In this document: piece by piece, positions 6,964-37,803 of the stretch | How the letters are laid out: each line of letters starts with the position of its first letter | Numbering within the stretch: the stretch's first letter is position 1 | Assembly (NCBI RefSeq): GCF_947499695.1 | Contig: NZ_CANMPQ010000002.1 | Location: 744,001 to 808,000, forward strand | Origin: an uncultured Allomuricauda sp. | GTDB taxonomy: Bacteria; Bacteroidota; Bacteroidia; Flavobacteriales; Flavobacteriaceae | Direction: 5' to 3' | Length of the DNA stretch: 64,000 nucleotides | Program-made: the position numbers and the translations under genes | Notes under the pieces: model-generated | Told to the model about the DNA's origin: nothing | Databases searched by the model: none | Seen by the model: only the letters and a program-made list of their open reading frames with translations

Positions 6964-7084
6964 TAAAAATTATGGCATAAAGCTAAACAATCTAATTTTT
7001 AGAATGTAAAATGTTGATTAATAGAATATTATGAATTTTGGCATAATGCTTGGTCTTTACCATATGAATCAAAAAGCTGAAATT

Positions 7085-7999
7085 ATGAGAATTGGAAAAC
7101 TACTATTCGGAATATTATTTACAGGATTATTGGTCAGCTCTTGTTACACAGAAGTTGTGTTTGAGGATGACTTTATTGAAGCATCACCCATAAATACCGC
7201 CTTGGTATTGGAATCGTATGATTTGTGGTATATAGATATCAACGCAACTAAAGGAAATGGAGAAGTTCCATATTTACAACGGGCATTTACCGTTTCGTTT
7301 GATCGTGGTGTGGTTTATGCCAATAACAATATGGTGGGAATCGGGAAAACCGGAAACGGACTGGGAATAGATGTAGGTTCCTACGCTACCTTAAATGGTA
7401 TAGTTGAGATTGACCATGATGTAGATGGATTATGGTTGTTGGACGTATATGCAATAAACAATACTACTTTGGAATTATATGATTCTAGGTCCAATACCTC
7501 CTACGTACTTCGCGGTTATGATAGGAATAACTTTGATTATGATATGGTTTTCTATGACAACATCCATTATTTCTTGCAGGAATATGAAGCTTGGGGAAAA
7601 ACTTTTACAAGTGAAGTAGGTGCCGTAAACGATTTTGATGAGGAAAACCATCTCCAGTTCTTTTCTGATGAAAGTTTTAGATCATCTGTGGATGGGCCGG
7701 GTACATCCCTCGCTAATTTGGTTTGGGATTATGAGGGTAATTTTGAAGTCTTCGATGTAGCCAATGACGCCTCGCTTAAAACTTTAACATTGGATTACGA
7801 TTTTTTGGGCAATGATTATTTTGAGCTTTACGTTATTGATGATAGTACTATTGAATTGTACCATGTAGCCAGCGAGACGATTTATGAGTTCAACGGAAGG
7901 GGATACATTCGATATTTGAAAACAGGAAAAACAACGGGTAAAAAACGTTCAAAAGTTAAAAATTCTATAATGAACGTATCTCGACAAAGAAAAATGTAA
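7085..7999 (+). CDS. Lipoprotein with two tandem lipocalin-like repeats, function unknown
   Basis: The ATG at 7085 gives a 304-aa lipoprotein whose signal MRIGKLLFGILFTGLLVSSC ends in a lipobox. The frame is open from an ATG at 7031, but those 18 residues are polar and would bury the signal. The body is rich in Asp, Tyr and aromatic beta-strands and appears internally duplicated. NTTLELYDSRSNTSYVLRGYDR in the first half matches DSTIELYHVASETIYEFNGRGY in the second, about 130 residues apart. Similar proteins in Flavobacteriaceae carry unsupported enzyme names; no catalytic motif is visible. The last 25 residues are very basic and low complexity. A conserved RNA element lies right after the stop. 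Confidence 0.7.
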   Translation: MRIGKLLFGILFTGLLVSSCYTEVVFEDDFIEASPINTALVLESYDLWYIDINATKGNGEVPYLQRAFTVSFDRGVVYANNNMVGIGKTGNGLGIDVGSYATLNGIVEIDHDVDGLWLLDVYAINNTTLELYDSRSNTSYVLRGYDRNNFDYDMVFYDNIHYFLQEYEAWGKTFTSEVGAVNDFDEENHLQFFSDESFRSSVDGPGTSLANLVWDYEGNFEVFDVANDASLKTLTLDYDFLGNDYFELYVIDDSTIELYHVASETIYEFNGRGYIRYLKTGKTTGKKRSKVKNSIMNVSRQRKM

Positions 8000-8035: not shown

Positions 8036-8052
8036 TTTGGTTGGTTATTTAG
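8036..8052 (+). other. 17-nt box TTTGGTTGGTTATTTAG shared with the 37.6-kb sRNA
   Basis: This 17-nt string occurs identically at 37663-37679. In both places it sits 4-5 nt upstream of an intrinsic terminator stem. Here it lies in the 3' untranslated region of the lipoprotein gene that ends at 7999. I see no exact TAnnTTTG box immediately upstream (the closest is GATATTTG near 7909-7916), so it may belong to a 3'-UTR-derived RNA. Confidence 0.7.
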
Positions 8053-8056
8053 TTAA

Positions 8057-8097
8057 GAATCGCTTCAAGTACCTCAACTTGGGGCGGTTCTTTTTTT
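8057..8097 (+). terminator. Rho-independent terminator
   Basis: A 14-bp stem (8057-8070 with 8077-8090, including three G-U pairs) with a 6-nt loop is followed by seven T residues. It terminates the lipoprotein transcript and any RNA carrying the 17-nt box. Confidence 0.85.
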
Positions 8098-8127
8098 ATA
8101 GAAGATGTAAATAGAGCTAATTACCTG

Positions 8128-10787: not shown

Positions 10788-12368
10788 ATGAAAAAGTACT
10801 TGAATCTTTTTGATTTTTCGCAGAAAGTAAATTATCGTACTGAAGTATTATCCGGATTGACCGTTGCGCTGGCATTGGTGCCCGAGGCCATCGCCTTTGC
10901 ATTAATCCCTGGATTTTCTCCGTTAACTGGATTGTATGCTGCGTTTGTCTTGGCTTTGGTTACCTCAATTTTAGGAGGTCGTCCAGGAATGATTTCCGGG
11001 GCAACTGGTGCTGTTGCCGTTATCTTTGTTGGGTTGATTCTAGAGCTAAAAAACACCTTTCCCGGAATAGAACCCACTACCATTCTTAACTATGTTTTCG
11101 CAACGGTAATCATTGCTGGGATAATCCAAATCTTGGCTGGAGTGTTGCGCTTGGGTAAGTTTATCCGCCTTGTACCACATCCTGTTATGTTTGGGTTCGT
11201 TAACGGTTTGGCAATCATTATTTTCATGGCGCAATTCCCGAATTTCTACGAAAAAGGAACCGGGGAATTACTATCCGGGTCATCTTTATATATTATGTTG
11301 GGATTGACTCTTTTAACTATGGTCATCATATGGGGCTTTCCAAAATTAACAAAGGCGATTCCTTCCTCTCTGTTGGCGATAGTTGTGGTTTCCGCAATTG
11401 TTCTTGGCTTTGGAATTGATACCTTGACGGTAGCGGATACGATGCAAGAAGGAGAGAGTATAAAAGGAGGTTTTCCACCGTTGTCTATACCCAATATTCC
11501 ATTTACATTGGAAACTTTTCTAATAATACTACCTTATGCTGGGATTGTTGCAGGAGTTGGACTAATTGAAAGTCTATTGACACTCAACATTATTGATGAA
11601 ATTACTGAAACACGCGGTAGTGGAAACAAGGAATGTGTTGCACAAGGAACGGCTAACATCCTTTCAGGATTTCTATCGGGAATGGGAGGTTGTGCGATGA
11701 TCGGGCAGAGTTTGATCAACACTTCCTCAGGAGCACGAGCGCGACTTTCAGGTATTACAGCAGCCATAATGCTTTTGGTATTTATTATGTTCGGAAGCAG
11801 TTTAATTGAACAGTTACCCATGGCAGCCTTGGTGGGGTTAATGTTTATGGTTGCCATTGGAACATTTGAATGGGCAAGCTTTAAGACCTTTAGAAAAATG
11901 CCCAATTCTGATGTAATTGTAATGGTTTTAGTGACTTTGATTACCGCAGTGACCCATAATTTAGCGGTGGCTGTTTTGTTAGGAGTTATTATTTCTGCAT
12001 TAGCCTATTCTTGGGAAAACGCCAAACGCATACGCGCCAGAAAGCATGTTGATGAAAATGGGGTAAAGCATTACGAAATCTACGGCCCATTATTTTTTGG
12101 TTCCACAACCTTGTTTGCTGAGAAATTTGATGTGCAAAACGATCCTACAGAAGTAATCATTGATTTTCAAGAAAGTCGGGTTGCCGATATGTCTGGTATT
12201 GAGGCTCTGAACAAGATTACCGAGCGCTATGCCAAAGCCGGTAAAAAAGTACACCTAAGACATTTGAGCAAGGACTGTATTCTTCTATTGAAAAATGCGG
12301 AAGACATTATTGAAGTCAATGTTCTTGAAGACCCAACCTACAAGGTGGTAGTTGATAAGGTGAAATAG
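10788..12368 (+). CDS. SulP family anion transporter with STAS domain
   Basis: This 526-aa protein has 10-12 transmembrane segments in the SulP fold. It begins with LSGLTVALALVPEAIAFALIPG and contains GRPGMISGATGAVAVIF, the SulP core region. A cytoplasmic STAS domain occupies about residues 430-526 (FFGSTTLFAEKF, VIIDFQESRVADMSGIEAL). SulP proteins move sulfate, bicarbonate or carboxylates, and the substrate cannot be read from sequence. It differs clearly from the second SulP gene at 56420 and is not linked to sulfur genes, so bicarbonate or another anion is as likely as sulfate. Confidence 0.9.
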   Translation: MKKYLNLFDFSQKVNYRTEVLSGLTVALALVPEAIAFALIPGFSPLTGLYAAFVLALVTSILGGRPGMISGATGAVAVIFVGLILELKNTFPGIEPTTILNYVFATVIIAGIIQILAGVLRLGKFIRLVPHPVMFGFVNGLAIIIFMAQFPNFYEKGTGELLSGSSLYIMLGLTLLTMVIIWGFPKLTKAIPSSLLAIVVVSAIVLGFGIDTLTVADTMQEGESIKGGFPPLSIPNIPFTLETFLIILPYAGIVAGVGLIESLLTLNIIDEITETRGSGNKECVAQGTANILSGFLSGMGGCAMIGQSLINTSSGARARLSGITAAIMLLVFIMFGSSLIEQLPMAALVGLMFMVAIGTFEWASFKTFRKMPNSDVIVMVLVTLITAVTHNLAVAVLLGVIISALAYSWENAKRIRARKHVDENGVKHYEIYGPLFFGSTTLFAEKFDVQNDPTEVIIDFQESRVADMSGIEALNKITERYAKAGKKVHLRHLSKDCILLLKNAEDIIEVNVLEDPTYKVVVDKVK

Positions 12369-37547: not shown

Positions 37548-37572
37548 AAAAATAGTTAAAGTACGTTAAAAC

Positions 37573-37604
37573 TTACATTTCTCTAGAGGCAAAATGTATC
37601 TTTG
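37573..37604 (+). promoter_or_regulatory. Promoter of the candidate sRNA
   Basis: TATCTTTG at 37597-37604 is an exact TAnnTTTG box. TTAC at 37573-37576 is in the -33 position (20-bp spacer) but is not a good TTTG. The first hairpin of the RNA begins about 7 nt after the box, where transcription should start. Confidence 0.65.
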
Positions 37605-37609
37605 TTTCA

Positions 37610-37711
37610 CATAAGGGGTGGTTCCCTTATAACTTTAAGTATTGGTTTTTCATAATTTAAAGTTTGGTTGGTTATTTAGGAAAAGCCCAGTTCAGAGACT
37701 GGGCTTTTTTT
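37610..37711 (+). ncRNA. Candidate ~100-nt small RNA with three hairpins
   Basis: The 365-bp gap between the patatin gene and the DUF3108 gene contains a promoter (box at 37597-37604) and then three structures in a row. The first is a 5' hairpin with 7-bp stem ATAAGGG/CCCTTAT (37611-37630) beginning at the predicted transcription start. The second is AACTTTAA/TTAAAGTT (37631-37638 with 37657-37664). The third is the terminator AAGCCCAGT/ACTGGGCTT (37683-37706) with a T-run to 37711. Between the last two lies TTTGGTTGGTTATTTAG (37663-37679), an exact 17-nt match to 8036-8052, also beside a terminator. No ORF of note is present. I do not recognise an Rfam family. Confidence 0.7.
37683..37711 (+). 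terminator. Rho-independent terminator of the sRNA
   Basis: A 9-bp stem (37683-37691 with 37698-37706) with a 6-nt loop is followed by T residues to 37711. Confidence 0.9.
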
Positions 37712-37803
37712 GTATATAATATTTTGGAACAAGATTTGTTAAGTATATGTAAAGTACTGAATTCGAGATGTGATTTTAGTAATTTTATACCGACATATAG
37801 ATT

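Follow-up and report, generated by a model that had tools for sequence, protein, structure and literature searches.

A candidate small RNA family of Flavobacteriaceae that shares a terminator-adjacent sequence box with several other transcript classes

The 365-nt gap between the end of a patatin/Omp85 gene (37438) and the start of a DUF3108 gene (37804) in the window, the 64,000-nt stretch of Allomuricauda DNA analyzed here, raises two questions: what is encoded in this gap (locus A), and why 17 nt of it are repeated in front of another terminator in the same window (locus B). A preliminary description had placed at locus A a small RNA (sRNA) candidate with a promoter box, a 5' hairpin at the predicted start site, a second stem of 8 bp, the 17-nt box, and a strong intrinsic terminator. 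Inspection of the gap confirmed this layout (Table 1): the promoter box TATCTTTG is present where it had been put, a predicted hairpin begins at the predicted start, and the box TTTGGTTGGTTATTTAG is followed by a strong terminator, all within the gene-free gap. The second stem exists as well, although not with the proposed length, as it has 10+3 bp in the predicted fold. By its sequence, A possesses both its own promoter and its own terminator. The predicted fold (-37.2 kcal/mol, z -5.5, better than all 200 shuffles) has three predicted hairpins, an unpaired box, and a terminator. The motif UGGU is found in the loop of hairpin 1 and twice in the box, giving three conserved copies in A. The GG-N10-GT element downstream of the A terminator is called sigma54-like on the basis of its spacing, which we take to follow the -24/-12 rule.

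Table 1. Predicted features of loci A and B in window coordinates
Feature	Position	Strand	Basis
Lipoprotein-like gene, host transcript of locus B	7031..7999	+	lipoprotein reading by eye from N-terminus
Second box copy, in 3' UTR (locus B)	8036..8052	+	identical 17-mer
Terminator of locus B	8055..8098	+	
Direct repeat GTTAAAGT-NN-GTTAAA, candidate activator site, 5' of promoter	37555..37570	+	relaxed repeat in A copies
TAnnTTTG promoter -7 box, here TATCTTTG	37597..37604	+	read in sequence
sRNA A, about 102 nt (predicted ends)	37611..37712	+	conservation, fold z -5.5, covariation
Hairpin 1	37611..37630	+	UGGU in loop invariant (44 aligned sequences), stem covaries
Hairpin 2	37631..37664	+	no pair changed on both sides
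17-nt box TTTGGTTGGTTATTTAG	37663..37679	+	nt 37665-37676 unpaired in predicted fold
Intrinsic terminator, arms covary	37677..37712	+	
Sigma54-like element (GG-N10-GT), 5' of DUF3108 gene	37724..37741	+	sequence; other genera by eye

Two exact copies of the box occur in the window, and the second copy lies where it had been reported, in the 3' untranslated region (UTR) of a gene for a lipoprotein-like protein, with a terminator next to it. Beyond the window, the exact 17-mer was found in 24 of 39 genomes, namely in all 24 of the window's genus and in none of the 15 that represent other families of this order. Exactly two copies are present in 22 genus genomes, a single copy in one, and three copies in one. 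The reversed pattern had no match in the same 39 genomes. With at most one mismatch allowed, 145 of the 199 family genera had a match to the box, compared with about 38 of 199 for the reversed pattern. These comparisons agree with the earlier statement that a chance recurrence is very unlikely. The accompanying suggestion of a spread across Bacteroidota had to be narrowed: in a class-wide sample, the exact box TTTGGTTGGTTA[GT]TTAG was present in one of 198 genomes, the window's own, and thus looks restricted to Flavobacteriaceae (five other family members in this sample are without the exact form).

The box is closely associated with terminators. Among 30 family loci representing the best 17-mer matches, 26 read TTTGGTTGGTTA[TG]TTAG, one of these being an A copy, and a terminator was detected after the box in 23 of these 26 loci, which were chosen by the 17-mer alone, versus 93 of 2791 random control positions. 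In one of the three loci without detection (L044), a terminator is visible by eye. No terminator was detected in the four loci with other box letters, or after the one-mismatch matches in the window genome (L091 and L092); an order-level match outside the family (G295, L306) also lacks a terminator and was taken as a chance hit rather than a true box. The sequence common to the transcript classes described below is about 12 nt long, TTTGGTTGGTTA; the proposed sharing of a box was upheld, whereas its length of 17 nt was not. In one genus, g143, the box reads GGTTAGTTA in eight of nine A orthologs, and all nine loci (L299-L305, L307, and L308) are syntenic with DUF3108. Judging by species richness in the order sample, g143 is probably Flavobacterium.

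A search with an 81-nt query against 199 family genomes identified homologs of A in 42 of the 199 sampled genera (E<=2.6e-8), with 79-100% identity in the aligned portion; for 31 of them, identity is at least 92% over most of the query. Altogether, 136 of 199 matched at E<=0.01, the weaker matches being mostly short and left uncounted. Among the matches listed, named copies of A belong to Maribacter, Arenibacter, Cellulophaga, Zobellia, Robiginitalea, Croceitalea, Galbibacter, Kordia, Capnocytophaga, and others. In 44 aligned sequences, 25 of the 28 positions from the loop of hairpin 2 into the box are invariant and three are nearly so, and the UGGU loop of hairpin 1 is retained even in the divergent homologs. 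Close and distant homologs differ in the conserved core by a one-base length change (TTT to TTTT), which breaks a shared reading frame. For the 44 sequences, RNAalifold gave 14 pairs, 11 of them changed on both sides, in hairpin 1 and the terminator. When 29 diverse sequences were scored with a structure of 20 pairs set by hand, the covariation score was 0.164, compared with 0.124 (sd 0.007) for shuffled and at most 0.097 for slid controls; the number of further pair types did not exceed that of the shuffled sequences (18 vs 17.3), and the six pairs changed on both sides were all located in hairpin 1, with none in hairpin 2. Hairpin 1 and the terminator are therefore characterized by compensatory change while the loop of hairpin 1 stays fixed. 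A count of 171 of 171 paired was rejected as support for the structure, since the arms were picked by pairing and the wrong stem was taken in L072, L077, and L081. The anticipated conservation of stems and box in related genomes was found for hairpin 1 and the terminator, which covary, and for the box, which is kept; hairpin 2 is without two-sided changes. A appears to be a genuine conserved RNA family with a putative function, and the case for it is strongest in its conservation and modularity.

Other transcripts that carry the box fall into several classes. Locus B is, by the comparison of its neighborhoods, a 3'-UTR element behind an orthologous lipoprotein-like gene: in 19 of the 29 non-A loci among L031-L060 the box is preceded by a protein with the C-terminal motif of this lipoprotein. 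The protein of the window has no relative in Pfam, NCBIfam or PDB; its family is kept in the genera examined, and one of 12 homologs has a weak match to DUF6129 (E 0.0022). The locus B fold (-32.5 kcal/mol, z -5.7) beats all 200 shuffles, and the gene that follows is on the opposite strand. The box had been proposed to be exposed; it is mostly unpaired in the predicted fold of A but partly paired in that of B. Class C is a predicted standalone RNA with the same box and terminator, a sigma54-like promoter (which a script detected in 14 of the 16 loci), and a loop GAGURGUUA in 12 aligned sequences (members L275-L278, L281-L285, L291-L294, L031, and L052). The class C model finds matches in 46 of 199 genera, and these do not overlap with the 42 genera that have A (hypergeometric p 3e-6, without correction for phylogeny).

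In class D, the box occupies 3' UTRs of genes for proteins that begin with a signal-peptide-like stretch and end in long basic tails rich in Ser, Arg, and Asn (L279, L280, L287, L288, L289, L058, and L112). The host proteins of B and E likewise end in basic stretches. Class E has a shorter core, TGGTTGGTTA, which precedes the terminator in the 3' UTR of a gene for an outer-membrane beta-barrel protein (PF14905), and was found in four of five genus genomes examined (L413, L419, L446, and L450); by eye, its core lies in a hairpin loop whose arms vary. No class E element was present among the sites read in the window genome (13 of 16). The box is, according to these comparisons, a putative module placed beside the terminators of several transcript classes.

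The promoter region of A is conserved as well. Among the matches listed, a search of 100 nt located the pattern TAnnTTTR in 116 of the 117 named A copies with enough upstream sequence; the corresponding promoter consensus, TAnnTTTG, is given in the accessible text of an F. psychrophilum study (PMC9723704). All 117 copies have at least one upstream GTTAAA, 100 of 117 have a relaxed GTTAAA direct repeat, and the distance from the repeat to the -7 box is 42-43 bp in 98 of 99 measurable copies, again among the matches listed. This fixed spacing suggests that the GTTAAA direct repeat is an activator site. In its strict form, the repeat has a single occurrence in the window genome, the one at A, and its reversed control also has one, so the count alone is no proof.

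Comparison with Rfam (release 15) revealed no family at the gathering threshold at A or B, and only a tRNA was matched in the window. The lowest E-value for the RNA was that of BTnc231 (21.9 bits versus a threshold of 80.4). When eight loci were searched, there was no match on the RNAs, and one tRNA and two DUF805b elements were found elsewhere. Weak matches to MicC, rteR, BTnc231, and Thr_leader were rejected, as they aligned mainly via the terminator. No Rfam family at threshold explains A, in line with the preliminary description, and no description of this box was found in the open PMC text searched, where 20 of the 275 papers with the box core string were listed. The preliminary proposal of a regulatory RNA family with an exposed box by the terminator is supported by the conservation, the stems, and the lack of an Rfam family, except for the Bacteroidota-wide extent.

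Several kinds of regulatory RNAs have features in common with these loci. The 3'-UTR-derived sRNAs of enterobacteria resemble locus B, a candidate with a conserved element between the stop codon and the gene's own terminator; they differ in that the window genome has no Hfq match. For the same reason, the lack of a PF17209 match, A does not fit among the Hfq-dependent sRNAs, which presuppose an encoded Hfq. CsrB and RsmZ are protein-sequestering RNAs with a GGA motif; A likewise repeats a short motif in a loop and in a single-stranded stretch, but this motif is UGGU, in three conserved copies, and not GGA. The nearest in kind are FopS and GibS of Bacteroides, which, according to the accessible parts of the reports, are paralogous sRNAs with one short conserved sequence in common in bacteria without an obvious Hfq; FopS RNAs number 12-15 per genome, carry the shared seed close to the 5' end, bind RbpB, an RRM protein, and include one 3'-UTR-derived member (PMC11697453, PMC7366714). 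A and B are similar in sharing a short sequence in a member of Bacteroidota without an obvious Hfq and in including a 3'-UTR-derived candidate. However, as far as these reports are accessible, three defining features of FopS fail: (i) the window genome has one A and one B, (ii) the A box lies at the 3' end before the terminator, a distinction drawn from the description and not from the letters, and (iii) no protein of the window genome matches RRM_1 (PF00076), the domain of RbpB.

The partner contacted by the box could be an mRNA or a protein. In four genomes, both strands considered, AACCAACC was counted within 25 nt before ATG and compared with its reversed control (78/94, 76/90, 116/116, and 109/100), and it exceeded the control in only one of the four (109 vs 100). 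The complementary 10-mer TAACCAACCA had 186 occurrences on both strands of 13 genus genomes, A and B included, versus 290 for the reversed pattern, a deficit that could reflect avoidance or codon bias. The positions of the complementary 10-mers were more suggestive: in five genomes, 10 of 61 sites lie just before start codons, compared with 3 of 90 reversed-control sites (Fisher p 0.007), where 61 is the number of sites fetched out of 69 non-A/B sites, and 90 control sites were used out of 104. Five of the 14 omitted control sites overlap a complementary site; their addition gives 10/61 versus 4/95 (p 0.018). Restricted to non-coding sites, the proportions become 10/26 and 3/11 (p 0.71). As the complementary pattern contains a TAA stop, it avoids coding frames and is biased to gaps, and the start-site contrast is thus confounded.

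Start-proximal sites were found in two species each for two MFS transporter genes (L425/L452 and L418/L445) and for a small-protein gene without a Pfam match (L440/L454), and in one species for a sodium:solute symporter gene; there were none among the 13 sites read from the genome of the window. Four further sites, L413, L419, L446, and L450, were rejected as a conserved target, since they turned out to be copies of the box read on the opposite strand, within another 3' UTR and before a terminator. When the 61 sites were read as boxes, a terminator was detected after 7 of them, versus 4 of 90 controls (p 0.12, not a significant excess), and two of the seven (L403 and L417) look like coding sequence. 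On the protein side, a search of five genomes, the window's included, yielded no match to Hfq (PF17209; control rings, 5/14). RRM_1 had no match in the window genome (control rings, 2/14, Bacteroides ihuae among them), and one of the five genomes, from g143, encodes two RRM proteins. With neither domain matched, a reading of the box as an RRM/RbpB or Hfq site lacks support in the window genome.

Taken together, these data are best explained by a family of sibling trans-acting RNAs in Flavobacteriaceae in which the shared box is a contact site, most likely an antisense seed, a reading that we hold tentatively and rate at close to an even chance. According to this explanation, A would be a standalone sRNA gene that has a terminator and a regulated promoter to itself, and it would represent in the window a family united by a 3' module in which the box UUUGGUUGGUUA immediately precedes an intrinsic terminator. 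A would act in trans through the box, aided by the UGGU loop of hairpin 1, and the contact would most likely consist in antisense pairing of the box to mRNAs close to the start codon. Locus B would then supply either a sibling RNA derived from a 3' UTR or a decoy directed at the partner of A. The conservation, the structure of hairpin 1 and the terminator, the promoter- and terminator-like elements, and the sibling classes are read directly from the genomes compared, and from them we infer the transcription of A, its action in trans, its base pairing, and a product of B. In favor of this explanation are the two exact boxes in most genus genomes together with the presence of A across genera, the covariation and the invariant core together with the copies away from DUF3108, the recurrent pairing of box and terminator together with a class C under another promoter type, and, as suggestive though confounded evidence, the start-proximal excess with three genes each supported in two species.

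Three alternatives were assigned lower probabilities. That two ordinary terminators share 17 nt by chance can practically be dismissed: no point in support of it was found, and it is contradicted by the box counts in the genus and family, the A homologs, the covariation, and the frequency of terminators after the box. A might instead act in cis and not in trans, as a leader or attenuator for the DUF3108-TDO-M23 genes that follow it. This would agree with the position of DUF3108: of the 76 copies for which sufficient sequence is available, 72 have this gene no more than 600 nt downstream, as do all nine g143 orthologs (a patatin gene is upstream in 53 of 64 copies). Such a role is nevertheless very unlikely, given that four copies are located away from DUF3108 (three in Kordia and one in Capnocytophaga), that locus B carries the box although its next gene is on the other strand, and that in many genera, by eye, conserved promoter-like elements, GG-N10-GT included, stand between the A terminator and DUF3108. 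The sigma54-like element before DUF3108 argues that A is a separate transcript, and this is what A looks like from its surroundings. A conserved block resembling CAATACTTTGGAAYAAATTTTGTTTAAG, with sigma54-like spacing, was observed ahead of DUF3108 in many genera (37724-37741 in the window; L126-L205). Finally, A could be an ortholog of the published Flavobacterium sRNA Rfp18, in which case only its breadth and sibling classes would be new. In the accessible text, Rfp18 is one of 85 new RNAs reported in F. psychrophilum, is required for precise protease expression, and is widely conserved in the genus and strongly folded, with a third stem-loop (PMC9723704). A has a similar description as a structured sRNA with a third stem-loop conserved in other flavobacteria, and divergent, syntenic A copies occur in g143, probably Flavobacterium. 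The accessible description of Rfp18, the only basis of this comparison, does not include the shared box, 3'-UTR siblings or family-wide spread, and another of the 85 RNAs could match instead; we consider the identity improbable.

The strongest competitor concerns the nature of the contact. The box and terminator could be a docking module for a sequence-specific RNA-binding protein or chaperone doing the job of Hfq; the sRNAs (A and C) and the 3' UTRs (B, D, and E) would then share a protein and not targets, and A could titrate this protein. We regard such docking as a real contender, although short of an even chance. It is favored by the occurrence of the same 12 or so nucleotides beside terminators of unrelated transcripts, which counts against a seed and is at least as compatible with a protein site, by the UGGU copies, one in the loop of hairpin 1 and two in the box, and by the lack of enrichment of anti-box sites. 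The absence of Hfq and RRM_1 matches from the window genome means that the protein would be another one. Against docking, no candidate protein was found, and the conserved stretch of A exceeds what a short protein site needs. The antisense seed, in turn, is weakened by the same lack of overall anti-box enrichment and by the changed box in g143. Since the start-site contrast is confounded and the window genome has no start-proximal site, antisense pairing is placed only slightly ahead of a protein site. A bolder proposal, on the whole unlikely, is that box and terminator form a family-wide RNA address label, carried by sRNAs under different promoters (A with a TAnnTTTG box, C with a sigma54-like one) and by several 3' UTRs, and read by an undiscovered RNA-binding protein that would take the place of Hfq in Flavobacteriaceae. 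Little of the post-transcriptional control in this family has been mapped, and neither an Hfq nor an RRM protein was matched in the window genome. A short motif marking sRNAs and 3' UTRs across many genera would be a direct handle on the partner, whether mRNA or protein, and one labelled oligonucleotide could capture it in a laboratory strain of Zobellia, Maribacter or Cellulophaga.

The A core had no matches in viral_contigs, whereas the box string was found in 28 stretches of this set, one of which, in the viral contig L388 (IMG/VR, 11401-11417), has a box followed by a clear terminator, by eye. With no core match and a single such stretch, a phage-borne sRNA was rejected. In bacterial genomes, A was observed to be duplicated: three copies are present in G061 (probably Capnocytophaga, by sequence; L103-L105), and tandem copies occur in G217 (L102), Kordia jejudonensis, and Cerina litoralis (L130 and L158).
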